From: a virus
Direction: 5' to 3' (one strand)
Length of the DNA stretch: 28,224 bases
Virus record (IMG/VR): IMGVR_UViG_3300044646_001083
Span: 1 to 28,224 of that record
Position 1 is the first letter of the stretch. Every line of letters starts with the position of its first letter. Shown here one piece after another: positions 150 through 18,334 of the stretch. The notes below the pieces were generated by a model. That model saw only the letters and a list, made by a program, of their open reading frames with translations, was not told the DNA's origin and did no database searches. The translations under genes were made by a program, and so were the position numbers.

Positions 150-362
150 TTATTTATCTATCTTGAAATCTTTGCCTGTAAGATTATTGACAAATTCAAT
201 AAATTTTTCTGCTTCCTTTTTTTTACCATTCACTGTCATAAAAATTACGGCTGCACTGACCCCGGCGAGTGTGCCCTTGGTTGCACCTTGGAAATACATC
301 CAGGTACCAAATACACAACTCATAAAAAACCAGAGAATGTGGATTGCATATTGTTCTATCAT
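150..362 (-). CDS. Small membrane protein, unknown function
   Basis: A 70-residue protein with a hydrophobic N-terminal half: one segment at about residues 6-25 and a second at about 28-44, followed by a charged, Lys-rich tail. This suggests one or two inner-membrane segments with a cytoplasmic C-terminus. It sits 2 nt after the stop of the preceding gene and its own stop overlaps the GATAAATA late box. I do not recognise a family. It could be a minor membrane or holin-like factor, but nothing specific supports that. Confidence 0.6.
   Translation of the reverse strand: MIEQYAIHILWFFMSCVFGTWMYFQGATKGTLAGVSAAVIFMTVNGKKKEAEKFIEFVNNLTGKDFKIDK
151..158 (-). promoter_or_regulatory. T4-type late promoter octamer (GATAAATA)
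   Basis: The minus strand reads GATAAATA, one change from the canonical T4 late -10 box TATAAATA. In T4 this box spans about -13 to -6, placing +1 near position 145, the A of the downstream ATG. It overlaps the stop codon of the upstream gene. The match is by sequence only. Confidence 0.5.
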
Positions 363-364
363 TA

Positions 365-565
365 TTAGCGCCTATAGTCTAAGTCGTAATCATCAAACAA
401 GTCTTCTTCCATGTCTTCACTTGAAAGTCTCTTTAGCGTGTCAAGATCGTGGCCTCTTAAAGCATTACGAATATGCTTCTCACTACGGTCCTTCTGCTTT
501 GGTTTAGATGGGCGGTCCTCATAATCCTCAAAGCGCTGGTTACGAGAATACTTCTTGATCGTCAT
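365..565 (-). CDS. Small charged protein, unknown function
   Basis: A 66-residue, highly hydrophilic protein. The N-terminal half is basic (many Lys/Arg) and the C-terminal third is strongly acidic (Glu/Asp runs with DDYD). No membrane segment or catalytic motif is visible. The start has a good Shine-Dalgarno (AGAGGT) about 9 nt upstream. It lies between a small membrane protein and a conserved phage gene in the same polycistron. The charge pattern would suit a nucleic-acid or protein-binding accessory factor, which is inference only. Confidence 0.55.
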   Translation of the reverse strand: MTIKKYSRNQRFEDYEDRPSKPKQKDRSEKHIRNALRGHDLDTLKRLSSEDMEEDLFDDYDLDYRR

Positions 566-580
566 GGAACTATAAACCTC

Positions 581-1021
581 TTACTTAACATCATCCGGTA
601 GGATATCAGGGAATGCTAACTTAGCAACATCAGCTGTGATTCCCTTATACAGCTTATGTAGTTTCTTGTCCTTGGCAGCAATCAACATTAATGCTTCAGG
701 ACCAGGAAGGGATTCTAGAATAGTAATGAATATATTCTCACGCTTAATCTTGTTGAGGTTCTGACCTGGCTGGTCAACTAGGTAACCCATCTTACGTGAT
801 TCAGCATGGAGGTAACCACGATGGTAATCGTACTGGTTCTCAGGCACTGGCTTATAAGGAGGTGCTCCTTCTGGCAAAGCTGCTGCTACATTAGGATGAA
901 AGGCTAGCTGAAGAACACTCTTCATAGCAAACGAATCATTTGCCTTTAGGACATCAGCTCTTTCCTGCTTCGTCTTATAGCGGCAGGCAACTTCAAACAC
1001 ATCACATACGTTACTGTTCAT
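581..1021 (-). CDS. Conserved T4-like phage protein (DUF6433-like)
   Basis: A 146-residue soluble protein. The pattern 'lead helix, then FHPNVAAALPEGAPPYKP, then ...RRENIFI.LLESL, and KGIT...AFPDILP' matches what I recall of the DUF6433 family, common in marine T4-like phages. That assignment is from memory. No catalytic motif is evident. The ATG overlaps the RNase H stop by one base (TAATG), with GGAG about 7 nt upstream, so it is probably translationally coupled to RNase H. Its conserved place next to rnh hints at a replication-linked role, but its function is unknown. Confidence 0.6.
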   Translation of the reverse strand: MNSNVCDVFEVACRYKTKQERADVLKANDSFAMKSVLQLAFHPNVAAALPEGAPPYKPVPENQYDYHRGYLHAESRKMGYLVDQPGQNLNKIKRENIFITILESLPGPEALMLIAAKDKKLHKLYKGITADVAKLAFPDILPDDVK

Positions 1022-1890
1022 TAGAATTCTCCAATATGTTCCATTAAGTTTTTTAACTTGAATTTGATAAAGTAATTAAGTAGGTCTGCTTTCTTCTTAC
1101 CTTCTTGCTCATTATATTGAGCAAGAATATTCTTATAGACCTCACCTGGAATCTTCGATAGGTCTACTAGTGCCTCGTTTCTCTTATAGCCACGGAGCAT
1201 GTTTTGGTCACAAAAGTCTTCTGGATTAGAATGCTTGACCCACTGGTCAAGACTCTTCTGGCGAACTGGCTTCTGTCTAGTACCAGAGATGAAACAATCA
1301 TCACCTGATAGGAAGTTAGGAATACCATCACCAGAGTCACCCCTCATAATATGTTCCTTGAGATATAACTCAGGATTCTTATGAGAGATAAACTTCTTAC
1401 GGACCGGATCGTACTGAGTGACGTTGACAAACTTCTGAAGCTGGATGAAGTCCTTATCCCCAGAGAGGATAAGAATCTTTTCTGCACTGCCTGTCATTAG
1501 CAATGAACCATTGTGGTGAACAAGGGCTGAGATAATATCATCTGCTTCTGCCGTCTCGATCTTTAGGACTCGATATGGAAAGTACTCCTTCAGCTCTTCC
1601 CGAATCTTATTGAAGCACTCGAAGATCGAGGTCCAATCAATATCAGATTCCTCTCTAGCCTTCTTTCGGTTGGCTTTGTAGTATGGGTAGATCTTTCTAC
1701 GCCAATAGTTCTTATCGTCACATGCAATAACAATCTCGCCATACTCCTCACCAAACTTTTGTTTGTATGATCGGATGGCGTTCAAGACCATGTGACGGAC
1801 AAGAGCCTCTTCAATCTTGGCATCCGTATGGTTACCAAGCTGCATCATCAGGTTAGAAATCATAACCTGGTTTAGGTCAACAATAATCAT
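1021..1890 (-). CDS. rnh: RNase H / 5'-3' exonuclease (T4 Rnh-like)
   Basis: A 289-residue FEN/5'-nuclease family protein that in T4 removes RNA primers from Okazaki fragments. Visible motifs are the N-terminal IVDLN (residues 3-7), ACDD plus the basic YWRRKIYPYYKANRKK arch region (56-77), the acidic ETAEADDIISA site (112-122), LSGDKDFIQL (142-151) and RGDSGDGIPN (183-192), the helix-hairpin-helix metal site. Together these supply the expected Asp/Glu ligands. Length is close to T4 RNase H (about 305). The start overlaps the upstream stop as ATGA. The C-terminus is Lys-rich and ends in a short hydrophobic tail, which could be a partner-docking peptide. Confidence 0.9.
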   Translation of the reverse strand: MIIVDLNQVMISNLMMQLGNHTDAKIEEALVRHMVLNAIRSYKQKFGEEYGEIVIACDDKNYWRRKIYPYYKANRKKAREESDIDWTSIFECFNKIREELKEYFPYRVLKIETAEADDIISALVHHNGSLLMTGSAEKILILSGDKDFIQLQKFVNVTQYDPVRKKFISHKNPELYLKEHIMRGDSGDGIPNFLSGDDCFISGTRQKPVRQKSLDQWVKHSNPEDFCDQNMLRGYKRNEALVDLSKIPGEVYKNILAQYNEQEGKKKADLLNYFIKFKLKNLMEHIGEF

Positions 1891-2285
1891 GTTTGGTTTG
1901 GTCCTTCATCATCTGGATCATCATAGTCATCTTCGTCAGCGTTATGCCACTCAGAATCCAGAAAAAATTCAAGTCTGTTAAAGTATTTATCAAATTCATC
2001 TACAAACGAATGTAGAGGATGATGTTCTTCCCTATACCGTAGTATAATGGAAAAGATGGCTTCCCTCAACAGCAAGACATCCTTTCTGTCAAAGTCTTCT
2101 GTCTCAAAACCATATGCTCTGAGCAACATCATTGTCTTATTGAACACATCAGTTGCTTCTGGACCAGCCTCATGGTAAGCCTCAACAAAGCTTTCGAGAT
2201 GCCTTGTCCTTTTCATCTTTGGTTCCATCTTCTTCTGACGGAACTCAGCTAGGCTAACGACATTGTCGTTATTCGAGGATTCCAT
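1887..2285 (-). CDS. Conserved hypothetical protein with acidic tail
   Basis: A 132-residue protein beginning with VVSLAEFRQKK, a short motif seen at the N-termini of many small phage proteins, followed by a predicted all-helical body and an Asp/Glu-rich C-terminal tail. No enzyme motif is seen. Its stop overlaps the RNase H start (ATGA), suggesting coupled translation. The ATG is preceded by GAGG at only about 3 nt, so initiation may depend on the preceding gene, which it overlaps by 17 nt. Function unknown. Confidence 0.6.
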   Translation of the reverse strand: MESSNNDNVVSLAEFRQKKMEPKMKRTRHLESFVEAYHEAGPEATDVFNKTMMLLRAYGFETEDFDRKDVLLLREAIFSIILRYREEHHPLHSFVDEFDKYFNRLEFFLDSEWHNADEDDYDDPDDEGPNQT

Positions 2286-2478
2286 CTTCCTCTTCCTTTG
2301 CTAAGACATTGTCTGTAAAGTAAGGAGTGTTGAATGTTGGAACCATATCAAGCTCCGTAAACCCATCATCCTTCATCTCCTTGACCAGCTTTAGGGCATC
2401 TGTCTTATTGAGGTCAAAGAACTCAATGATACCACCATCAGCGTTCCGAACAAATACAGAAAAGGTATTAGAAGCCAT
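2269..2478 (-). CDS. Small conserved phage protein
   Basis: A 69-residue acidic protein starting MASNTFSVFVRNADGG, predicted to be a small alpha/beta fold (strand, turn, helix ALKLVKEMKDDG, strand). I chose the internal ATG because the longer frame begins at a TTG and the ATG has AGGA at 7 nt. It overlaps the end of the tiny membrane ORF upstream and the start of the next gene. No catalytic motif. Function unknown. Confidence 0.6.
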   Translation of the reverse strand: MASNTFSVFVRNADGGIIEFFDLNKTDALKLVKEMKDDGFTELDMVPTFNTPYFTDNVLAKEEEDGILE

Positions 2479-2554
2479 GTGCAAATCCTATAAAGAAACC
2501 AATAAACCAAGGAGCGAGAGCAATGATGATAAGAGCAATTAGGAAGCGCTTCAT
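2468..2554 (-). CDS. 28-residue hydrophobic mini-protein
   Basis: A short frame starting MKRFLIALIIIALAPWFIGF, almost entirely one membrane helix with a positively charged start. Its ATG overlaps the upstream stop as TAATGA and its stop lies inside the next gene, so it fits the coupled chain of this operon exactly. Such single-helix phage peptides are often overlooked. The coupling and the coherent hydrophobic sequence argue it is real. Role unknown. Confidence 0.5.
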   Translation of the reverse strand: MKRFLIALIIIALAPWFIGFFIGFAHGF

Positions 2555-3612
2555 TACCAAACCCTCAAGAGGACAGTGAACTCATTCAGTCGGCCATTCA
2601 TCGGCTTGGCAACAGCCTTGATAGCATCGAACTGTTTGTTGAGTTGAGACTTAGAGGCATTCATTACAACCTTGAGGAACTCCTCAGGCTTTCGAAGCTT
2701 CTTGGATACGCTTTGCTCAAGCTCAATGTTAAGAAGGCTCGAACGCTTAAACTGGATGTTGCTACCAACATAGCGGCCAAGCTGACGAGTCTTAGTGTTG
2801 AAGATCCAAAGTTGCTCAGAGCCAAGAACCTTCTGGGGGTGGATTGAACCAACCTTAAACTCGGTAGACTCCTTCAGGTACTTGACCTTCGACAACATCT
2901 TCTCGACGTTTGGCTTACGGACCTTACGGACACGAGCAGCCTTCTTAGTCTGCTCAAGCTGAGCAAGATCAGATTCCAACTTCTCGTAGAATGCAACAAG
3001 GACCTTGATAGCCTTCTTGCCATAGGCCTCATAACATTCGACAACAGCAGGGTCACCATCCTTGAGGAGAGCCATCTCGTTAAAGTTGAACTCAAACGCT
3101 TCTCGAATCATGCGAGCATGGCCAGCCTTACAGCCTTGACCATTCAAATAGTCATATATGTTATCATCGTATGACTTGCCAGCAATGAAGTTATCAATCT
3201 GCTGGTCAATCCAAGCGACATACGGAGTACAAGACTCCTTCAGACGGTCGCGAATTGAAATGACATTAGTCGGTACAACATCTTCCTCTTCCACATAGGT
3301 AGAGGATTCAATTGCCTTCATTGCGAACGCAATAACACGAGCCTGCTCACCAGTTGCCACACCACGAGATTCCATTCGGGCAAGCGCGGCAATGGCACGA
3401 GGAACATCACCACTCGTAGCCTTGGCAATGTCGCTCTTAGAGAATGACTTCTGCTGGGCGAGGAACTGCCGCAACCAAATCTTATAGTTGCCATCATCGC
3501 TGTTGTAGTTGTACCAGTTAAGAGCCTCAATGAGGTTCAACTTGGTAGGTTCAGTAAACGTCGGTTCTTGGCCGAGTGCTCGAGCAAGAGAATCGTTACG
3601 CTGCTTTGCCAT
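2554..3612 (-). CDS. Conserved hypothetical protein, basic C-terminal half
   Basis: A 352-residue soluble protein and one of the larger genes here. The N-terminal region has LNLIEALNWYNYNSDD, a motif I associate with a conserved marine T4-like phage protein. The middle is helical and acidic. Around residues 225-245 is a Lys/Arg-rich patch, followed by a beta-rich segment (LWIFNTKTRQLGRYVG), which could contact nucleic acid. There is no zinc cluster or OB signature like that of T4 gp32, so I do not call it the single-stranded DNA binding protein. Function unknown; abundant structural or DNA-binding roles are both possible. Confidence 0.6.
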   Translation of the reverse strand: MAKQRNDSLARALGQEPTFTEPTKLNLIEALNWYNYNSDDGNYKIWLRQFLAQQKSFSKSDIAKATSGDVPRAIAALARMESRGVATGEQARVIAFAMKAIESSTYVEEEDVVPTNVISIRDRLKESCTPYVAWIDQQIDNFIAGKSYDDNIYDYLNGQGCKAGHARMIREAFEFNFNEMALLKDGDPAVVECYEAYGKKAIKVLVAFYEKLESDLAQLEQTKKAARVRKVRKPNVEKMLSKVKYLKESTEFKVGSIHPQKVLGSEQLWIFNTKTRQLGRYVGSNIQFKRSSLLNIELEQSVSKKLRKPEEFLKVVMNASKSQLNKQFDAIKAVAKPMNGRLNEFTVLLRVW

Positions 3613-4798: not shown

Positions 4799-5461
4799 AG
4801 TCCATAGGGAAACTGGCATGGAATCCACGACTTCTAGACCGGGTGTAAAGCATGGAACATTATAATCCATAACATGGTGGAATGCTTCATGCTTGATTTC
4901 ATATGGTGGATTCTGACGACCTGACTGAGCAAGGATGACGGTTGAGGTCTGACCTAGGTCGGCTAGGTAGTTTAAGAGGTCGTCACTCGTCTGCTGGCCA
5001 TAGATAAGATCGGATGCAAAGACAACAGACTGCTCCGCAATCTTAGCTTTGAACAAATCTTTAATGTATGCTGTTACAATTTCATTATTACGATTACTAT
5101 TAACAGCAATAGTAAAATCACTATACACACAACAATCTATACCAATTGAAATCTTGGCTCCTGCTCTCTTAGCAGCAATGGCGCCAGTACCCTGACCTGT
5201 TCCAATATCGTAGACAACCTTATCCTTAACAATACTTGGATTGTCGAGAATCCATCTACCAAGGGCAACACCACATTCCCAAAGGTAGGGCCATTGCCAT
5301 GAGTGATGTGCATCCTGGAGCTGTTTCTTAACGCCATCGTCCTTTTGTTTGAGGCAAAAGAATTCTAGCTCTGGAAGAAGTGGATGCTTCCTCCAAGCAA
5401 AGTTATCTAGTAGGTCTTCAACGTTTGGTGTTATAGAAGAGAATTTAGCAGGAATGTCCAT
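4769..5461 (-). CDS. SAM-dependent methyltransferase (METTL20/PrmA-like)
   Basis: A 230-residue class I methyltransferase. Motif I is VVYDIGTGQGTG (residues 82-93), the acidic strand end is around IGIDCC (107-111), and DLIYG (151-155) fits the motif IV position. The stretch PYLWECGVALGRWILDNP (58-75) resembles the METTL20/nicotinamide-N-methyltransferase-like group, which methylates protein lysines or small molecules. The substrate cannot be told from sequence. It overlaps the GT4 gene by 31 nt and is the last gene of the glycan operon. Its last residues (NPLILKDL) are encoded within the repeat array, so the C-terminus may have been replaced by the repeat. Confidence 0.75.
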   Translation of the reverse strand: MDIPAKFSSITPNVEDLLDNFAWRKHPLLPELEFFCLKQKDDGVKKQLQDAHHSWQWPYLWECGVALGRWILDNPSIVKDKVVYDIGTGQGTGAIAAKRAGAKISIGIDCCVYSDFTIAVNSNRNNEIVTAYIKDLFKAKIAEQSVVFASDLIYGQQTSDDLLNYLADLGQTSTVILAQSGRQNPPYEIKHEAFHHVMDYNVPCFTPGLEVVDSMPVSLWTCNPLILKDL

Positions 5462-6393
5462 TCATCTTTCCTCAAGTTCCAATCATAATTTCTATCAAAG
5501 TATTCTTTCTGGGCCTTTAGATAGTTGTCAACAGAATTCTTCTTAACTACATCAATTGCATGATATAAGATTTTAAAGAACATATTAGCATGGCTATTAA
5601 CATCTTCCGTATAGTTATACATTAAGGCGTAATTAGCACAGGTCTCAGGCAATGCAGCAAGAGAAGATGTTACAGTTAAGCATTGAGCAGACATCGCCTC
5701 TAGAGCACATAGGCAGCTTGTCTCTTGCCAAATAGATGGGTAGGCAAAGATATGGGCTTTACCAATAGCCGTTCTGAGTTCATCCTGGGTGACAGAACCG
5801 TGATAGGTCATGCTTGGATGTTCCTGAATCTCTTTAAAGAGCTCCTGATATGGAGCATCTCTTTCAGCCCAACCATATAGCTTAAAGCTCGAGAATACGT
5901 CTAGATGAATATCAGGATGATACTTCAGCATCTCTTTAAACACTGGTACTAGAATCTCTAGGCCGCGGTGAGGTGTTGGGTGGTAGATTAGTCTAATCTT
6001 ATTGTGTCTGATATCAGATTCATCTAGAGGCGACTTATCAATCATATCCATTGGAATAGGGTTGATTGCATTCTTGATTACTACACCTTCTGAGTATGGT
6101 ACACCAAGGACAGTGTTGTACATTTGCTGCTGCCAATGAGACACAAAAACAATCTTTTTAAATTGCTTTCTATACTCTGGATCTTTTAGCTTGGCTGATT
6201 CAGGGTCCCAAGGTAGATCATGCAACCAAAGGATTGGAATCTTATCTGGATTGATTTCCCTAACTCTAGAAGGAATAATTTGAAACTTACTTAGTAGTTC
6301 CTTATCAACATACTGCTCAAGCCCTTCAGCCATAAGCTCTGTACCACCTTTAGAATTCTTATTTGTTTCATTTCTTTCAATCACTAGTTTCAT
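5431..6393 (-). CDS. GT4-family glycosyltransferase
   Basis: A 320-residue GT-B fold glycosyltransferase, short for the family (usually 350-400) with a reduced N-terminal domain. Visible features are the N-terminal GGTE loop (16-19), VSHW (84-87), the TPHRGLEIL donor-domain motif (140-148) and the nucleotide-sugar binding motif YPSIWQETSCLCALEAM (218-234), with the Glu pair of retaining GT4 enzymes. Donor and acceptor are unknown. It overlaps both neighbours in a five-gene block with a GT29-like, a GT8-like and two methyltransferases, suggesting assembly of a modified glycan on a phage or host target. Confidence 0.8.
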   Translation of the reverse strand: MKLVIERNETNKNSKGGTELMAEGLEQYVDKELLSKFQIIPSRVREINPDKIPILWLHDLPWDPESAKLKDPEYRKQFKKIVFVSHWQQQMYNTVLGVPYSEGVVIKNAINPIPMDMIDKSPLDESDIRHNKIRLIYHPTPHRGLEILVPVFKEMLKYHPDIHLDVFSSFKLYGWAERDAPYQELFKEIQEHPSMTYHGSVTQDELRTAIGKAHIFAYPSIWQETSCLCALEAMSAQCLTVTSSLAALPETCANYALMYNYTEDVNSHANMFFKILYHAIDVVKKNSVDNYLKAQKEYFDRNYDWNLRKDEWTFLLNSLL

Positions 6394-7225
6394 TTTCTTC
6401 TCTCACTTTGAATTCTGATGTTTCAACATTTAGTAGAGTTGCCCTCTTTCTAAATTTATCCATCATTAATTGAACTTTATCCTGAAGCTCAGGCGTATTG
6501 ACAAGAGGCTCCATCTCGTGGAAAATAATCTTCCCTTGATCCCGTAACCTTTGAATGTATCGTTTATCAGGATGACCTTCTACGAGCATTCCGGCATGAG
6601 GGTTAGAGTTGCTACCCTTTAATGATGGAACGGGTAAATGAAAACTACTTACTTCATTTACCTCACCATTCATCTCATACTGTACTTTACCTTCAAAGAA
6701 ATCAAATCCAATTACATGGAGCTCTTTATAGGAGCGGATGATATTTGTAAAATATGCTAATGTCAATGCACCCTGAGATGCTCGCTGATTAATATCTACA
6801 GTACCATAAGCAGTTTTAATTAATGCTCTTGTCTTCTTTATATCACCCATCACGAAGTAATCTTTATATATCTCAAAGTCTTCTTCGTAAAAATGTTTGG
6901 ATATTGTTGTCGTACTTTTCTTTGAATCGTATACAGATATCTGAGATATATTTAAAACCTGAAATGGAGTTCCTTTAAAATCTGGATAGTGATTAGCTCT
7001 TAATATAGAGAGGACCCACACATCTGTTTTGCTACCTAAGTGTTCTTTAAACTCAGGCCATGGATATCCTTTACCCATTCTAACTACAACATCAAAGCTA
7101 TCTATAAACTCACCATATGGTTTATTAAACAGAGAAATTGAATTGCCAACAATAAGAACTCTCTTATTCTGACAGTATCCAATTAATCTATTTTCAAACT
7201 TGTCGTTGAGTCTTCTATTCCACAT
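6377..7225 (-). CDS. GT29 sialyltransferase-like glycosyltransferase
   Basis: A 282-residue protein whose first half carries VLIVGNSISLFNKPYGEFID (23-42) followed by SFDVVVRM, a close match in shape to the sialylmotif L of GT29 sialyltransferases (GNSGSL..YG..ID..D.V.RMN). A second motif, QGALTLAYFTNII...LHVIGFDFFEG (151-179), matches the sialylmotif S position. Several histidines follow (H206, H210, H218) and could supply the catalytic base. There is no signal anchor, unlike Golgi enzymes. CMP-sialic acid or a related nonulosonate donor would be expected from the family, but a different donor is possible. Its ATG overlaps the GT8 stop (TAATG). Confidence 0.75.
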   Translation of the reverse strand: MWNRRLNDKFENRLIGYCQNKRVLIVGNSISLFNKPYGEFIDSFDVVVRMGKGYPWPEFKEHLGSKTDVWVLSILRANHYPDFKGTPFQVLNISQISVYDSKKSTTTISKHFYEEDFEIYKDYFVMGDIKKTRALIKTAYGTVDINQRASQGALTLAYFTNIIRSYKELHVIGFDFFEGKVQYEMNGEVNEVSSFHLPVPSLKGSNSNPHAGMLVEGHPDKRYIQRLRDQGKIIFHEMEPLVNTPELQDKVQLMMDKFRKRATLLNVETSEFKVREENETSD

Positions 7226-7917
7226 TAAAATCTACCATATTTTTCTTCTACCTTGTGTTTATAGAAATTAAATCTATCGGCAAATTCAACATTCTCGTAT
7301 CCAGGATGCCAAGGGCCACCGTCCGTAAAGTGAATTGCTTTTGGATTAACTTCATCGCTGTAGTAACCTACAAGATAGTTATATGTATGGGGTATAGAAC
7401 CAATGTATTGATCATCGCACCAGCTAAACTCATGTAGGTAACCAGCTGGTGATTCAGAAACGACTTGTGGAGTCAACCTTTTTGTAAAGGCATGATCACA
7501 ATTGAATACCATTAATGAAGACCAATTCTTTCTTGGATACCAACTTTGTTTTTTGCCATCCATCTTTAGCGGTTTAATTTGATCCTTCTGAATATTATGT
7601 TTAACTACACTAACAGCTTTGGTTGGATCAATAACATCTAGAAGTTCAAGAGGGTCACAATTCCAAATAAAGTCGCTATCACAAAAGATAGCATACCCAT
7701 AGAAACCCTTGAGGTAGGGAGTTAGGAATCTTGTAAACGCAAACTCTGTACTACCAACAGCTTGCTCTCTCCAGAAGTAACCTCTACTCACGACAGAGGT
7801 TAAGTGTATTGTTTCAACTTGTATTTTTGAATAGTCTTCAATAGAGAGTCTGCATGTATCAGCTATACCAGCCTGCTTACTATCATGCCCAATAAAGAGT
7901 TTTACTTTCTCTTTCAC
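7225..7917 (-). CDS. GT8-like glycosyltransferase (DxD)
   Basis: A 230-residue GT-A fold protein. LFIGHDSKQ opens the Rossmann-like strand, FCDSDFIW (78-85) holds the metal-binding DxD (D80, D82), and HFTDGGPWHPGY near residues 197-208 is the C-terminal His/Gly motif typical of glycogenin/LgtC-type GT8 enzymes. It probably transfers a hexose or hexosamine from a UDP-sugar. Start is GTG, overlapping the upstream stop as GTGA, with GAGG nearby. It follows the methyltransferase and precedes the GT29-like enzyme, so the two are likely made together. Confidence 0.75.
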   Translation of the reverse strand: MKEKVKLFIGHDSKQAGIADTCRLSIEDYSKIQVETIHLTSVVSRGYFWREQAVGSTEFAFTRFLTPYLKGFYGYAIFCDSDFIWNCDPLELLDVIDPTKAVSVVKHNIQKDQIKPLKMDGKKQSWYPRKNWSSLMVFNCDHAFTKRLTPQVVSESPAGYLHEFSWCDDQYIGSIPHTYNYLVGYYSDEVNPKAIHFTDGGPWHPGYENVEFADRFNFYKHKVEEKYGRF

Positions 7918-8711
7918 TTAACCTCTCCAGTATTAACATCAGTGTAGTATCCACTTTGTACGGCATCATAATGCCAAATATTGAAGTTAGGAGAATTATA
8001 AAAACGCAACGAGGTATTGCATATTGGTTTCTTACCAACTGCCTCTAACTCCTTCCATCTTTCTTGGGAGACACTTGTTGGCTCTACCAACTCATTGTCG
8101 TCATTTTGAATTAACAAAAATGATCGGTCACCGCAATACCGCTTAATGGCATCTACCCACCAATTTAAATCTTTAATTGTTGCATGGAGATTCTCTCCAT
8201 CCTTAAACATTTTCTTAGCAGAGTTGGAGGAAATTGAGAATATAATTGTACCATCTTCCTTAGTATAGTTACCAATCTCTGTTAGAACCTGAGGCACAAA
8301 CTCCTCTGGCACATGCTCCATAACATCAGCACAGCATGTAATATCAAACACCATACCAGTTGGCGGTTTAGTTGCATATTGTGGTACGGCTGGGTCATAA
8401 GAATAATAGCATTGAATCATGCCATTTAATCTACCAAGTAGTGTCTTATTGCCGTGGGCTGAAAGGGGCATGTATGTGTGGATAGCCTTTCCACACCCAT
8501 AGTCGAGTAATGTTACTGCCCTACCCTTAGCATTGATTACTTGTTGGATGTAAGGTGGGAACTTCTTACCAAGCTGGGAACCATCAAACAGAGTTTTACC
8601 TTTGGATGGGTCTATTTCGTTGGTGTGGAGATTGCCATCAAGTGCCAAGTACTTCTCAGCAGCAGTATGGATTCCCTGGTATCTTAAAATATACTCTTCT
8701 AATTTGTTCAT
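7914..8711 (-). CDS. SAM-dependent methyltransferase in glycan operon
   Basis: A 265-residue class I methyltransferase. Motif I is TLLDYGCGKA (67-76), an acidic strand end YDPAV (105-109), and DITCCADVMEHVPEE (123-137) is the 'DVxEHV' motif seen in sugar- and lipid-modifying SAM enzymes. The rest is a helical insertion around the substrate site. Good Shine-Dalgarno (AGGA) before the ATG. As first gene of the glycan block, it probably methylates a sugar or a precursor; the substrate is inference. A CTAAATA sequence just upstream could be a weak late promoter. Confidence 0.75.
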   Translation of the reverse strand: MNKLEEYILRYQGIHTAAEKYLALDGNLHTNEIDPSKGKTLFDGSQLGKKFPPYIQQVINAKGRAVTLLDYGCGKAIHTYMPLSAHGNKTLLGRLNGMIQCYYSYDPAVPQYATKPPTGMVFDITCCADVMEHVPEEFVPQVLTEIGNYTKEDGTIIFSISSNSAKKMFKDGENLHATIKDLNWWVDAIKRYCGDRSFLLIQNDDNELVEPTSVSQERWKELEAVGKKPICNTSLRFYNSPNFNIWHYDAVQSGYYTDVNTGEVK

Positions 8712-9567: not shown

Positions 9568-9575
9568 TATTTATA
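9568..9575 (-). promoter_or_regulatory. Canonical T4 late promoter (TATAAATA)
   Basis: Exact late-promoter octamer on the minus strand. The implied +1 is about 9562, followed by GGAGG and the ATG of the glycine-zipper protein at 9544, an ideal spacing. It overlaps the end of the adenylosuccinate synthetase gene. Confidence 0.75.
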
Positions 9576-10557
9576 TTGAATGTGGAGTATCAGAGAATAT
9601 AACTTGAACATTATCTGGTAATGCTCTCACAATAACATCGATTAGCCCAAGGCGGCTACCAGCATCCCACTCAACATCATTCTTAAAATATCTATATGCA
9701 TTAGCCTGGTCAAGGATATCAATCTTATTAACAACAAGATGGGTAATGTCATTTACCCTTGCAGCATATGCAACCTTATCTAAGTTAATCCAATTGCACT
9801 TTCTTGGGCGGCCAGTGGTTGCGCCAAACTCTTGACCGTGAATCTGAACCTTCTTGAGTTCCTCGCAATGCATTCCGAAGTCTTTGGTTCCAACATATGT
9901 TTCATATGCTTTGGCAACACCATAGATTTTTCTAATTTTTCTAGGCGACACACCATTTAGAACAACAGAACCAATAGTACAGTGGGAAGAAGTAACATAA
10001 GGATAATCACCCCAATCAATATCCAAAGCAAAGCCTTGAGCACCTTCGGCGAGAACACGAGCGCCATCAAGAAGATGAAGACTATCAACAATGGTGAACT
10101 TATCAGTATTAATAAGCTGATCACCAATCCTAATACCAGTGCGTCCATATTTGTTCCTGTAGGCTGGGCCTATTCCTTGCTTAGTTGTACCAATGGCTGT
10201 ATCGTTATTGTCTTCTGCCAAATGCTCTTCAGTTACGACATGAGCCCTTGAGTCAACAAAAATAAGGCCTTCTGTTTTGAATCCATTTGCATTAAGATAT
10301 GCAATTTCCTCTTCAAGCTTCCTTACATTAACTACACAGCCAATACCAATTAAAGATCGGATGCCGTAGAGAACTCCAGCTGGCACTTGATGTGTGACAA
10401 TCTTCTCGCCATTGTGGTAGATAGTATGTCCAGCATTCGAGCCACCATTATATCGGAGAACTAGGTTGTACTCTCCACCACTTAGTAAAGAATGAGTAAC
10501 CTTACCTTTTCCAGTATCACCTGACTGGAGGTCTACAACAACATCGCAGTAATTCAT
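9571..10557 (-). CDS. purA: Short adenylosuccinate synthetase (PurA/PurZ family)
   Basis: A 328-residue member of the adenylosuccinate synthetase family, which joins IMP and aspartate using GTP in AMP synthesis; the PurZ subgroup instead uses dGMP to make diaminopurine nucleotides in Z-genome phages. Visible are GDTGKGK (13-19, aligned with GDEGKGK), SNAGHT with the catalytic-position His (H44), GIGPAY (129-133), EGAQG, FGATTGRPRK (244-253) and NKID (277-280, the guanine specificity motif). About 100 residues shorter than E. coli PurA, lacking about 50 around residue 160, as in archaeal and PurZ enzymes. D14 at the catalytic-Asp position is retained, which favours PurA; PurZ is reported to lack it. 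ATGA overlap upstream. Confidence 0.85.
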   Translation of the reverse strand: MNYCDVVVDLQSGDTGKGKVTHSLLSGGEYNLVLRYNGGSNAGHTIYHNGEKIVTHQVPAGVLYGIRSLIGIGCVVNVRKLEEEIAYLNANGFKTEGLIFVDSRAHVVTEEHLAEDNNDTAIGTTKQGIGPAYRNKYGRTGIRIGDQLINTDKFTIVDSLHLLDGARVLAEGAQGFALDIDWGDYPYVTSSHCTIGSVVLNGVSPRKIRKIYGVAKAYETYVGTKDFGMHCEELKKVQIHGQEFGATTGRPRKCNWINLDKVAYAARVNDITHLVVNKIDILDQANAYRYFKNDVEWDAGSRLGLIDVIVRALPDNVQVIFSDTPHSI

Positions 10558-11895: not shown

Positions 11896-11923
11896 GTTGT
11901 TACCTCCATTTATGCAGTCGGAA

Positions 11924-11954
11924 GAAAAAGGCGGACGGTTTTTACGCCGCCGCC
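11924..11954 (-). terminator. Rho-independent terminator after tmRNA
   Basis: On the minus strand a stem GGCGG-CGG pairs with CCG-T-CCGCC (8 bp, one bulged T, loop of about 8 nt), followed by TTTTT. It lies a few bases after the last tmRNA pseudoknot and before the next gene's Shine-Dalgarno. This is the strongest terminator in the window. Confidence 0.85.
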
Positions 11955-11956
11955 TC

Positions 11957-12280
11957 TGACCTTTCTGTTACCAAGTGGTCAACTCTGGTAATCTACAACT
12001 GCAATTAAGCAGCTAGAGCCATGTTGTAAACATCATCGTTTGCGTTTACTAGTTTTGCGCTGATTAAGTCAGTCGCCTCACTGGTAGCCCTTAGGTTATT
12101 ACTTGCCCTGTCGAAGCCAAATTCATCCCCGTCAGATAGCCACCACGTACATTGCTGCAGAGGTGATGGGCATTTGGTGGAGATGTCGGGGGTCGAACCC
12201 GAGTCCAGAACACCTTTAGCTATGAGTTTACTACCATTACTTTTTTGCAAACTGGTAGATGTAATTCAACCAGATTGCAA
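11957..12280 (-). ncRNA. ssrA: Circularly permuted (two-piece type) tmRNA
   Basis: Ribosome-rescue tmRNA with permuted order. First comes the acceptor half: T arm TCGGG-TTCGACC-CCCGA (12202-12186), acceptor strand CATCTCC, discriminator A and CCA (12185-12175). After a 44-nt intervening segment with its own hairpin comes the coding half, starting GGGGATG (12130-12124) and TTGGCTTCGACAGGG, then the tag. GGGGATG pairs with CATCTCC over 7 bp, with G3 opposite U, the alanyl-tRNA synthetase identity pair. Pseudoknots: stem 12280-12269/12256-12245 with loop ATTAC pairing GTAAT at 12240-12236, and after the tag TTACCA/TGGTAA interleaved with TGACC/GGTCA (11991-11957). A P2-like pairing joins 12096-12086 to 12221-12212. 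Outer ends are approximate. Confidence 0.9.
12005..12043 (-). other. tmRNA tag reading frame (ANDDVYNMALAA)
   Basis: The tag part of the tmRNA: GCA AAC GAT GAT ... GCT GCT TAA, giving ANDDVYNMALAA and a stop. It ends in the Ala-Ala proteolysis signal seen in tmRNA tags and starts with the usual AND pattern. The exact resume codon could be one or two triplets earlier, since the upstream CTAGTA is not a perfect match to the E. coli signal. Confidence 0.8.
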
Positions 12281-12300
12281 TACCTATCAACCAATAATAA

Positions 12301-13733: not shown

Positions 13734-13754
13734 TTGATAGACTTACTCTATCAA
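13734..13754 (-). terminator. Perfect 8-bp hairpin at gene end (weak terminator?)
   Basis: TTGATAGA / TCTATCAA stem with a 5-nt loop overlapping the stop codon of the APS-kinase fusion gene, followed by TTCTT. It separates that gene from the mini-protein and peroxiredoxin. The T run is weak, so it may instead stabilise the mRNA 3' end. Confidence 0.4.
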
Positions 13755-14542
13755 CCAATTCCCATCTCTTTTCTGATCTTGGTGGCAGAGATTGCTTGAA
13801 TGTCTTCTGGCAATTCAATCTTACTAATTGTATAACCAACATCTCTACCATAAGAAATATCTACAATGTTTGGAACCCAAACGATTGTGAACTTACCAAT
13901 ATAGTTTTGAAGCTTACGCATGATGAGACGCTCTGTCTCGATAATAGTAAATGGATTATTATCATCCTTAGGCATCTGTCTGACCATAATTGCAACCTGA
14001 CCAGTTTTCTTCAATGCCTCTTCAAACAATGCTTTGTGGCCATCGTGGAATGGTTGGTATCTACCCATCATTTGCACTGTTGGTTTAGTGTTATCCCAAG
14101 TATCATACTTTAATTGGTATACGATCTCAAGTGTGAGATCATCACTCTCTTCCCAAGACATAACCCAATGAGTAATATTTTTTGGTCTTGCAAACACCTT
14201 ATTTGTATCTTCAAATCTACCTTCAGTGATGGTATCCATAAAGATGATAGTATCAAACTTGAAAAGATCCTGTGCCTCTAGTGTAGGGCAGACAAAATCG
14301 CAAACAGCATGATAGCCTCTTTTCAATGACTGCTCAGCTAGATCTCTCATTCGCTTGGCTTGTCTCATTCTACCTTCTGGCGAGAAGTCCCAATCATTAT
14401 GCAACTGTCTTACAAGGTCTGCATTATAGTGCTCGACTTTTTCGTCGTTAGCTCTGAGTAGCTCTACCAACTTTGTGGCAAATGTTGTCTTACCGGAACC
14501 AGGTAATCCCATAACGAGAAAAATTTGTGGATGCGTTTCCAT
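13751..14542 (-). CDS. APS-kinase-like / nucleotidyltransferase fusion
   Basis: A 263-residue two-domain protein. The N-terminal half is a P-loop kinase like CysC (adenylylsulfate kinase): Walker A GLPGSGKTT (12-20), ADLVRQ (41-46) and CDFVCP (81-86), the PAPS-forming kinase pattern. The C-terminal half is an HIGH-type nucleotidyltransferase: GRYQPFHDGH (160-169) and ISATKIRKEM (251-260), as in NMN/cytidylyl transferases. A sulfurylase plus kinase would give PAPS, but the second domain is not clearly ATP sulfurylase. Start is an ATG with GAGG at 6 nt (a longer TTG start is rejected). It follows two sulfotransferase-like genes, which supports a sulfation role. Confidence 0.75.
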   Translation of the reverse strand: METHPQIFLVMGLPGSGKTTFATKLVELLRANDEKVEHYNADLVRQLHNDWDFSPEGRMRQAKRMRDLAEQSLKRGYHAVCDFVCPTLEAQDLFKFDTIIFMDTITEGRFEDTNKVFARPKNITHWVMSWEESDDLTLEIVYQLKYDTWDNTKPTVQMMGRYQPFHDGHKALFEEALKKTGQVAIMVRQMPKDDNNPFTIIETERLIMRKLQNYIGKFTIVWVPNIVDISYGRDVGYTISKIELPEDIQAISATKIRKEMGIG

Positions 14543-14543
14543 A

Positions 14544-15398
14544 TTAAACCTCAACTAGATACCTGTGTCTATCAACATAATACAATGCCTGCTGCCAGGC
14601 TCCTAGTATTGGAGCTGGTAAGTCATCAGTAATAACTACTTTGTTTGTATTGTGAGGAGTTGGCACAAGGTGAACCTTCTCCTTCTGATACTGCTGGATA
14701 TGCTGCTGTGTGATACCAAACTTTTCAAGTTGAAGAGGTTTGATATTATCTTCATATGATACTAACTTGATATCATTTTTAAATCTATCGTATACAACAC
14801 GCCACATGAATAGCTGACTAATAAAGATTTGTGTATACATATTTAACCAACTAAATGGTACATGCATCGTATCATACTTAATGCAACTATCTTCATTTGT
14901 AAAAATAAACGTACTCGACCTCACGTTTGGTCTAAGGTTTGGAAACTTTCTGTAATTTTCATCTTGTTGTATTCTGTATCTAGCATTTATCTTAGATATA
15001 AACTGCTCAATAATATTTTTACGGTGGGTCATGTATACATTGACACCATTGTCAATACAGTACTGAATAAAAGAGAAGTCTATAGTTTGCTTTTCAAGCT
15101 GCTCTTTTGCTGTCCAGCTCTCATTGGATTGTTTTAAAATTTCAATTCTTTTAGACTTTGCCTTGAAGAAACCTATATTATCAAACCCGTTTGTAGTTTC
15201 ATTATGGTACCTCGCTGTTAAGTTACTAGAGAATTGATTATATAATTCACTCTGTCTCTGAGTATCTTTATTGTAGTTATATGGTCGTACAAGACTATGC
15301 AGACCTTCACCCAGATTAATAGTACCTTGACTATAAGATATTAAATCAGTTAGTACAGTGCTACCCGATCTATTTGTAAATAAGATTAAATTATTCAT
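14544..15398 (-). CDS. Sulfotransferase-like protein 1
   Basis: A 284-residue protein with the N-terminal P-loop-like motif TNRSGSTVLTDL (8-19), the 5'-phosphosulfate binding loop of PAPS sulfotransferases, and MTHRKNIIEQF further on, matching the 3'-phosphate binding Arg region. No signal peptide. Acceptor unknown. It overlaps the second sulfotransferase-like gene by 8 nt and is followed within 2 nt by the APS-kinase fusion, so all three are probably one transcript. Confidence 0.7.
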   Translation of the reverse strand: MNNLILFTNRSGSTVLTDLISYSQGTINLGEGLHSLVRPYNYNKDTQRQSELYNQFSSNLTARYHNETTNGFDNIGFFKAKSKRIEILKQSNESWTAKEQLEKQTIDFSFIQYCIDNGVNVYMTHRKNIIEQFISKINARYRIQQDENYRKFPNLRPNVRSSTFIFTNEDSCIKYDTMHVPFSWLNMYTQIFISQLFMWRVVYDRFKNDIKLVSYEDNIKPLQLEKFGITQQHIQQYQKEKVHLVPTPHNTNKVVITDDLPAPILGAWQQALYYVDRHRYLVEV

Positions 15399-16230
15399 GC
15401 AGATTAGGAACTTCGTATTGTTTTGCTATTTCAAGAATTTCTTGCCAGTTAGATATTTGATCGCCAACATTATATCTATGTGTTGGTCTTAATGAAATTT
15501 CTTCTTTTCCATAGGCTTGCAACAAGTCGGGGCTAATGTCTAGCAGACTATAATCTCCTCTAACAATAGTATCCTCATAGTACATTACCTTACCATACTT
15601 GCCATAAGCATTAACATATGCCTTCCACATATTATTAATAACAGTAAGTTTTACAATTTGTTCTATTGCCTGCTCAGGAGGAACATTTACAGGGGGGAAT
15701 GAAACATTCAAACTACCCCTTGTATTGAGGAAACCATTGATCTCTGGAATTTCAAGTCTTCCTGCTTTCTTAGCTTTTCTATAAAAATTAGTCTTTACTT
15801 CTGCAAGCAGGGTACTATATAGTTGTTTCTTGAAATTTCTTCTACTTGCAAAATACAGCTCAAAATTGTTTTCTATAGCCCACTCTACAATTCCAATTCC
15901 AGGTAGCATCGCTGTCGGATAGTATTTTACTACTATAGGATATTTTTGCGTTATTTCTTTTACAAATTCAAACCTTTTGTTGTATAGGTTGAATGTGTCA
16001 TAAAAATACGAGTCCCTTTCTTTCTTAGAAGTTGGATTTGGCTGCGGATCTAGTAATGACCGTTCCTTTAGAATAACTTTAATATCTTCAGGTATCTTAT
16101 CATATAGCACACTTCTTATTGTAGTGTCAAGCATCTCATCCAAGTTCAGAGCATTATACTTATAGGCGAGTAGATCGCTTACAATAGTGCTGCCAGACCT
16201 AGGTGTGAATACTACAAGAACATTAGCCAC
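15391..16230 (-). CDS. Sulfotransferase-like protein 2
   Basis: A 279-residue protein with FTPRSGSTIVSDL (8-20) as the 5'-phosphosulfate loop, and FASRRNFKKQLYS in the position of the 3'-phosphate binding motif. It shares overall layout with its neighbour but has little direct identity, so it is probably an older duplicate with a different acceptor. Start is GTG, with AGAGG about 10 nt before. It overlaps the preceding gene's stop region. Confidence 0.7.
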   Translation of the reverse strand: MANVLVVFTPRSGSTIVSDLLAYKYNALNLDEMLDTTIRSVLYDKIPEDIKVILKERSLLDPQPNPTSKKERDSYFYDTFNLYNKRFEFVKEITQKYPIVVKYYPTAMLPGIGIVEWAIENNFELYFASRRNFKKQLYSTLLAEVKTNFYRKAKKAGRLEIPEINGFLNTRGSLNVSFPPVNVPPEQAIEQIVKLTVINNMWKAYVNAYGKYGKVMYYEDTIVRGDYSLLDISPDLLQAYGKEEISLRPTHRYNVGDQISNWQEILEIAKQYEVPNLHE

Positions 16231-17528: not shown

Positions 17529-18266
17529 TCAGCTAGCAGTAATTCTTAGAGGCCCAGCCTTTAGTCCTTTCATAAAGCCAGGGGACACACTAGCATTATA
17601 GGCAGCTGGCCGACCTTGGATAGTTGATATCCTATCACCCACTACACATACCACTGGCGGAGGGTCCATTACACATCTAGCAATACCAAAACTATCATGG
17701 ATAGAAAGAATGCCATCAATTGTAGTATTGACCCCACCAAACTCCGTTGTGTAGTATCCTTGCATTCTATCAATCATGTATCTAGCCATTGCAGGTGTGA
17801 TGGCATAAGCATGGGTACCTTCAAACTTATTGATATCCATGAATTTGATGGAGTCAGCTGGACGCTCGTAGTCTTCTGCCTTGTTGACTCTATACCCAAG
17901 CATCACTAACTTGTTATCTGGTATCTCTGTATCGTAGAGTTTATCCTTCAAAATAGCATCATGCTCGAACACACAACATGCGTGTGGTTGTTCGGCTATT
18001 ACTCTCCAAAGTTTGAGGTGGCTAGCAGTGCATCCCATTTCATTGTTTACTGTAACCCAATGAAATCCTGTCTCTTCATCGAGACTGCAGGTTCCAGCAT
18101 TTTCAACACCTTTCCATAATGTGTAGGGCAGCCCATACTGCTCGCATGACCTAGCACATTCATTTGCATACTCAATGGATTCAGGTCTATCGATATAGAT
18201 GATATATGCATGACGAATCTTACCTGTCTCGCCAAAAGCTTTGTGGTTTGTTCTATCTAATTCCAT
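17529..18266 (-). CDS. GT25-family glycosyltransferase
   Basis: A 245-residue protein beginning MELDRTNHKAFGETGKIRHA. EMGCTASHLKLW (76-87) and VFEHDAIL (99-106) are the conserved motifs of GT25 (LgtB/LpsA-type galactosyl- or glucosyltransferases), including the EDDA-type acidic pair (here EHDA). Start is the ATG with a GGTGGGG Shine-Dalgarno at 5 nt; a longer TTG start is not favoured. Donor unknown, perhaps UDP-galactose or UDP-glucose. It is separate from the main glycan operon and lies next to a 2-oxoglutarate oxygenase-like gene. Confidence 0.75.
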   Translation of the reverse strand: MELDRTNHKAFGETGKIRHAYIIYIDRPESIEYANECARSCEQYGLPYTLWKGVENAGTCSLDEETGFHWVTVNNEMGCTASHLKLWRVIAEQPHACCVFEHDAILKDKLYDTEIPDNKLVMLGYRVNKAEDYERPADSIKFMDINKFEGTHAYAITPAMARYMIDRMQGYYTTEFGGVNTTIDGILSIHDSFGIARCVMDPPPVVCVVGDRISTIQGRPAAYNASVSPGFMKGLKAGPLRITAS

Positions 18267-18334
18267 GCTATCCCCACCTATGACCTTTTCACCTTTTATT
18301 TTGTGGCCTCTAACTATTATAGATCCCAAACTAC

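Follow-up and report, generated by a model that had tools for sequence, protein, structure and literature searches.

The closest described systems to the enzyme considered here are the GT29 sialyltransferases ST3Gal1, ST6Gal1, ST8SiaIII, and ST6GalNAc2. In ST3Gal1, a pair of asparagines in sialylmotif L (N150/N173 in pig, N147/N170 in human) contacts the CMP phosphate, and the second of them can also bind the C8 hydroxyl of Neu5Ac, a probable contact; the histidine of motif III is the acid and that of motif VS the base (PMC6884586). Conserved cysteines have not been reported in bacterial GT29 proteins (PMC5811610). For a plant member of the family, RCKT1/MGP2 (RG-II), CMP-Kdo has been proposed as the donor in a Kdo transfer, which gives a precedent for this donor. 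The paper presents the transfer as a proposal without in vitro activity, and it has been hard to test in vitro because the acceptor of the protein is not known and CMP-Kdo is short-lived (PMC11288761).

GT29 genes are carried by some coccolithoviruses (PMC5371807), and an Azotobacter phage has a gene annotated as a putative alpha-2,3-/2,8-sialyltransferase (PMC12772287). Databases already include proteins named GT29 from herpesviruses and giant viruses, as well as from an uncultured Caudovirales phage. Both kdsA and kdsB have been reported as viral genes (PMC10653327; for kdsB also PMC9529941).

The window analyzed here is a stretch of 28,224 nucleotides of viral DNA (IMG/VR record IMGVR_UViG_3300044646_001083). 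An open reading frame with an ATG start occupies exactly positions 6377..7225. It lies on the minus strand, which the initial annotation had not stated, and its product has 282 aa. PF00777 (Glyco_transf_29) was the sole Pfam family found in it, scoring 38.3 bits where the gathering cutoff is 23 (E 1.3e-9), the match being confined to residues 22-129. The same cutoff was passed by the homologue in Stenotrophomonas phage DLP6 (31.8 bits) and by the relative L032 (28.9). The PHROGs and NCBIfam collections gave no family for the protein. A phmmer search of the PDB with the single sequence returned weak matches only, all of them sialyltransferases (Cst-I of family GT42, E 0.0014; ST3Gal1, E 0.0036). 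With a profile of 11 relatives, only GT29 sialyltransferases were found (ST3Gal1, 1.4e-8; ST6Gal1, 9.6e-8; ST8SiaIII, 1.6e-5). A profile of 43 relatives matched porcine ST3Gal1 across most of the domain, chain residues 99-281, with E 5e-14 and the VS histidine region aligned; as a sequence comparison, this similarity is far beyond chance.

An AlphaFold2 model built on the 43-sequence alignment (pLDDT 79.9, pTM 0.85) superseded an earlier, weak one made from 11 sequences (pLDDT 67.6). Its confidence is low in parts of loop 199-214, adjoining H210, and side-chain geometry there is not readable. VIA-align placed ST3Gal1 closest (2wnb; Z 15.3, rmsd 3.2, 194 residues), followed by ST6GalNAc2 (Z 13.9), ST6Gal1 (13.7), and ST8SiaIII (13.1). 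Outside GT29, the scores were 11.0 for the Methanocaldococcus jannaschii HPPK (8sd5), 10.8 for Cst-I, 10.4 for CstII, and 7.8 for Maf (5mu5). The 30 best Foldseek rows were all GT29. Since sequence profiles, motifs, and predicted fold agree, the ORF encodes a true relative of the animal sialyltransferases and a member of GT29, as the initial annotation had proposed from the letters alone; a family-profile search and a structure comparison, checks of the kind it called for, bear this out, with no other fold matching better. The GT42 enzymes CstI and CstII are soluble bacterial proteins of related fold, and CstII followed ST3Gal1 with the 43-relative profile, in a full-length match. The window protein is closer to GT29 than to GT42 by profile (E 6e-7 for CstII against 5e-14) and by structure (Z 10.4-10.8 against 15.3).

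The pair of sialylmotifs that the annotation had noticed is present, and counterparts of motifs III and VS were found in addition. Motif L spans residues ~22-70 (7016..7162, minus strand; VLIVGNS...IDSFDVVVRMGKG...LGSKTDVW), as delimited by ST3Gal1 alignments and conservation in relatives, and motif S spans residues ~146-178 (6692..6790, minus; NQRASQG...HVIGFDFFEG). In motif S, S150-Q-G152 is the counterpart of S-T-G, and G173-F174 that of GF. The motif III counterpart is SFHLP at residues 194-198 (6632..6646, minus), with His196 assigned by position, as the consensus H-Y-Y-D/E is not retained; the form is SFHLP or SWHLP, and S194, H196, and P198 are invariant in 16 G-type sequences. The motif VS counterpart covers residues 208-223 (6557..6604, minus), from NPH210 to Y223, and aligns with the VS region of ST3Gal1. 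H210 (codon 6596-6598) is invariant over 43 diverse relatives and by analogy is the probable catalytic base. In the VS pattern H-x4-E, the +5 position is V215 in the window protein and a glutamate in most other relatives; E216 lies at +6 through a short insertion.

The donor site keeps one asparagine of the ST3Gal1 pair and not the other. N28 aligns with the first, and Gly51 (codon 7073-7075) replaces the second, so that R-M-N-K-A of ST3Gal1 reads R-M-G-K-G. The loss of nucleotide-binding residues that the annotation had set against its own assignment is thus partial: one phosphate-contacting asparagine is gone, but N28 and both catalytic histidine positions remain. Like the animal enzymes, the protein has motifs L, S, III, and VS with the VS histidine, and its predicted fold is theirs, at ~16-22% identity in structure alignments. 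It differs from them in Gly51, in the displaced VS glutamate, in having no transmembrane anchor that we could see, and in having none of their disulfide cysteines in motifs L and S. These cysteines are absent from bacterial GT29 proteins too and so do not define prokaryotic members. RCKT1, a plant Golgi protein (PMC11288761), is likened to the window protein by the proposed donor.

A five-sequence profile scan of viral contigs gave 125 related stretches, of which 80 were kept; together with earlier loci, these yielded 58 distinct proteins. The initial annotation took the family to be mainly animal and plant, with scattered viral and marine microbial members. Such rarity does not hold in view of these stretches and of the proteins already named GT29 in phages, in giant viruses, and in herpesviruses; finding the family in a phage is no surprise by itself. 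Residue 51 was Gly in 43 of the 58 proteins and Asn in 15. We call the first class G-type (the window protein and DLP6 belong to it) and the second, which keeps the donor-contacting asparagine, N-type. A branch supported at 99/94, or at 87/84 with the defining residue masked, separates the Gly group from the rest. Besides Gly at position 51 throughout, the G-type class has N28, R49, R148, S150, G152, G173, and H196 invariant, and G152 and G173 are invariant in all 43 relatives as well. A literature search that covered few subscription papers found no report of this class or of a Kdo-linked phage GT29.

DLP6 is the only isolated phage in which we found a G-type member. Its hypothetical protein AAY80_202 is 34% identical to ours, with the G-type motif and the same cassette order, and differs in that a glutaredoxin gene lies between the GT29 and GT4 genes. 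The bacterial distribution was barely sampled, with one bacterial relative in a single genome-contig scan; a family search found GT29 in 4 of 150 genomes of that relative's phylum. Helicobacter mesocricetorum (L036) has a prokaryotic GT29 like the window protein, but it is N-type, fused behind a GT2-like domain, and without the GT-A/GT4/methyltransferase cassette.

In the window, the GT29 gene is the third of five head-to-tail overlapping genes, all on the minus strand. The first encodes a methyltransferase (phrog_24759, 7914..8711) and the second a GT-A-like glycosyltransferase (phrog_28018, 7225..7917), the translationally overlapping partner of GT29, whose homologues are annotated as nucleotide-diphospho-sugar transferase or GT24. 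The gene for a GT4-type glycosyltransferase (phrog_2170, 5431..6393) shares 17 bases with the GT29 gene; DLP6 has a homologue of it, as do Sinorhizobium phage phiM12 and Caulobacter phage Cr30. The last gene, which shows synteny in relatives, encodes a lysine-methyltransferase-like protein (PF10294, 4769..5461). PADLOC gave no defence-system match in the cassette. A T4-type RNase H, RNR, and primase among the genes of the window indicate a phage, and a 188-kb relative (G001) encodes the terminase, tail sheath, portal, and major head protein of a tailed phage.

The GT-A gene is a fixed companion of the class. A homologue lies within 4 kb of the GT29 gene in 39 of the 40 distinct G-type genes with enough flank and in none of the 12 N-type genes. 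Two other phages with GT-A homologues were considered. In Pelagibacter phage Mosig, methyltransferase genes accompany the GT-A homologue and the gene that follows is not GT29. The gp126 of CcrColossus (L055 3620-4270), encoded near a homologue of the window GT-A gene, is annotated as alpha-2,3-sialyltransferase-like; it does not match GT29, its match being to the MptE-like PF01973 (31.8 bits, cutoff 34.6), and by sequence the sialyltransferase annotation looks doubtful.

The genes linked to the G-type class point to Kdo. In one G-type subclade, ten loci (L063, L070, L076-L080, L086, L087, L091) have the operon kdsB-kdsA-GT-A-GT29. At L070 all four genes overlap, the kdsB-like gene and kdsA standing upstream of GT-A and of a GT29 gene that encodes 264 aa. 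The KdsA (Kdo-8-phosphate synthase) of this subclade scores above the NCBIfam cutoff (TIGR01362, 364 against 314 bits); its cytidylyltransferase, which is CMP-Kdo synthetase-like, is nearest to the KdsB models, yet below their cutoffs. The linkage is limited to this subclade, with none in the branch of the window protein itself. Nevertheless, because the same GT-A partner is found across the class and in no N-type locus, the gene pair of the window and the one linked to kdsAB are taken to be a single module. Neither G001 nor DLP6 encodes a cytidylyltransferase of the CTP_transf_3 family or NeuB, so their donor would come from the host.

N-type genes often adjoin genes for CMP-nonulosonates (NeuB, PseF-like cytidylyltransferase). 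NeuB occurs in six N-type records. PseF is the closest model, with scores below its cutoff, for the cytidylyltransferases that lie close to N-type genes in L035, L089, L108, L118, L119, L123, and L128. In the phage contigs L108 (3365-9906), L089, L119, and L123, the GT29 protein is a fusion encoded next to a PseF-like cytidylyltransferase, and the record also has NeuB; these are apparent phage nonulosonate pathways. A rule by which Asn means nonulosonate and Gly means Kdo is too strong. Two N-type records have both KdsA- and KdsB-type genes, namely W02 (L020), where KdsA, KdsB, and a SIS-domain gene are contiguous, and G026 (L099), and a third, G017 (L069), has a KdsA-family gene. The Asn/Gly difference alone, then, does not fix the donor. 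In the 462-kb uncultured phage L037 (LR756500.1), a SIS-domain gene, KdsB, and KdsA are contiguous at 203-3168 and an N-type GT29 lies ~8 kb away, which looks like a phage pathway for Kdo. In cyanophage S-SCSM2R, the GT-A, KdsB, and KdsA genes cluster without a GT29 gene, so that KdsAB may serve another enzyme there; Pfam does not assign to GT29 the hypothetical proteins encoded in the interval from GT-A to KdsB. Taken together, the records suggest that the phage GT29 family generally accompanies CMP-sugar synthesis, and that the class of the window protein accompanies Kdo wherever sugar genes are linked.

From the operon in related phages and by analogy with known enzymes, we propose, with moderate confidence, that the window protein is an inverting CMP-3-deoxy-ulosonic-acid transferase working within a phage glycan cassette, and that it most likely uses host-made CMP-Kdo as its donor. 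The sialic-acid-like donor of the initial annotation would then survive only in a wide sense, Kdo being a CMP-activated 3-deoxy-2-ulosonic acid; in the narrow sense it is at odds with the lost motif-L asparagine and with linked genes that are of Kdo type rather than NeuB. A more tentative proposal is that phages evolved a separate, Kdo-dedicated GT29 class, with R-x-G in motif L, SWHLP as motif III, and a fixed GT-A partner, which would build a Kdo-containing glycan on the virion or on surface intermediates of the host and draw CMP-Kdo from its own kdsA-kdsB or from the host.

It is less probable, though a serious alternative, that the enzyme is a true sialyltransferase or another nonulosonate transferase, moving host-made CMP-Neu5Ac, CMP-Pse, or CMP-Leg to a phage or host glycan. 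Every characterized structural neighbour uses CMP-Neu5Ac, and the N-type relatives have the PseF-like and NeuB neighbours already described. However, the asparagine that contacts the CMP phosphate and can bind the C8 hydroxyl of Neu5Ac (PMC6884586) has been replaced by Gly throughout the G-type class, the linked G-type genes are of Kdo type, and NeuB was found in no G-type record, nor in G001 or DLP6, with the reservation that the records are fragmentary and the donor may be supplied by the host. A GT29-fold transferase with a donor other than a CMP-sugar, such as a UDP-sugar, with the cassette neighbours supplying the rest of the glycan, is improbable: one of the two phosphate-contacting asparagines is lost and a CMP-sugar synthetase is absent from G001 and DLP6, but N28, S150, G152, and both histidine positions are kept, and CMP-Kdo genes are linked in the sister subclade. 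That the protein is no glycosyltransferase but an MptE-like or Maf-type protein sharing the fold (8sd5, Z 11.0; 5mu5, Z 7.8) is very improbable, given GT29 structures clearly in front (Z 15.3, and in Foldseek 1e-7 compared with 4e-3 for 8sd5), a PF00777 match above the cutoff with none to PF01973 at E<1, and a VS histidine invariant over 43 relatives.

The chemistry of the window enzyme can be drawn from the characterized GT29 enzymes. As a CMP-Kdo transferase, it would be soluble and would hold CMP and the donor by N28, S150, and G152. H196, in motif III, would serve as the acid for the departing phosphate, H210 of motif VS would take the proton from the acceptor hydroxyl, and this hydroxyl would attack Kdo at its C2 in one step of SN2 type, a single-displacement inverting transfer. 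A virion protein glycan and a cytoplasmic LPS/O-antigen intermediate are the leading acceptor candidates, about equally likely. DNA-base glycosylation of the T4 type was also considered. Because a PF00303 gene (thymidylate synthase/hydroxymethylase) is absent from G001, DLP6, and two shorter relatives, a canonical hydroxymethylated base is an unlikely acceptor for the window enzyme, with other routes possible.

Should Kdo be the donor, the name sialyltransferase would be too narrow for GT29, which would be a family of CMP-ulosonate transferases with phages as a large reservoir, and the cassette would point to Kdo-decorated phage particles or to LPS altered by the phage. The soluble phage homologues within the kdsB-kdsA operon also offer a simpler enzyme with which to ask whether the GT29 fold accepts CMP-Kdo.

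The phage of the window is rich in candidate decoration genes outside the cassette. A GT25-family glycosyltransferase is encoded at 17529-18329 on the minus strand (PF01755, 43.2 bits against a cutoff of 24). At 13751-14554, also minus, an APS-kinase-like domain is fused to a cytidylyltransferase-like one (PF01583, PF01467), and the adjoining region 15391-16230 has a weak sulfotransferase match; these are possible phage sulfation genes.

Two further features were observed on the minus strand. An adenylosuccinate synthetase-like protein of 328 aa (9571-10557; PF00709) belongs to phrog_1211, a 2-aminooxy adenylosuccinate synthetase family, and may be PurA-like or PurZ-like; its motif S-G-D-T-G-K-G-K is kept in relatives. 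A permuted two-piece tmRNA of betaproteobacterial type lies at 11914-12282 (Rfam RF04321, 144.5 bits; RF01850, 121.2 bits) with the tag ANDDVYNMALAA. Permuted tmRNAs were called in the relatives L047, L025, and L028 as well, and that of the window hints at a betaproteobacterial host.
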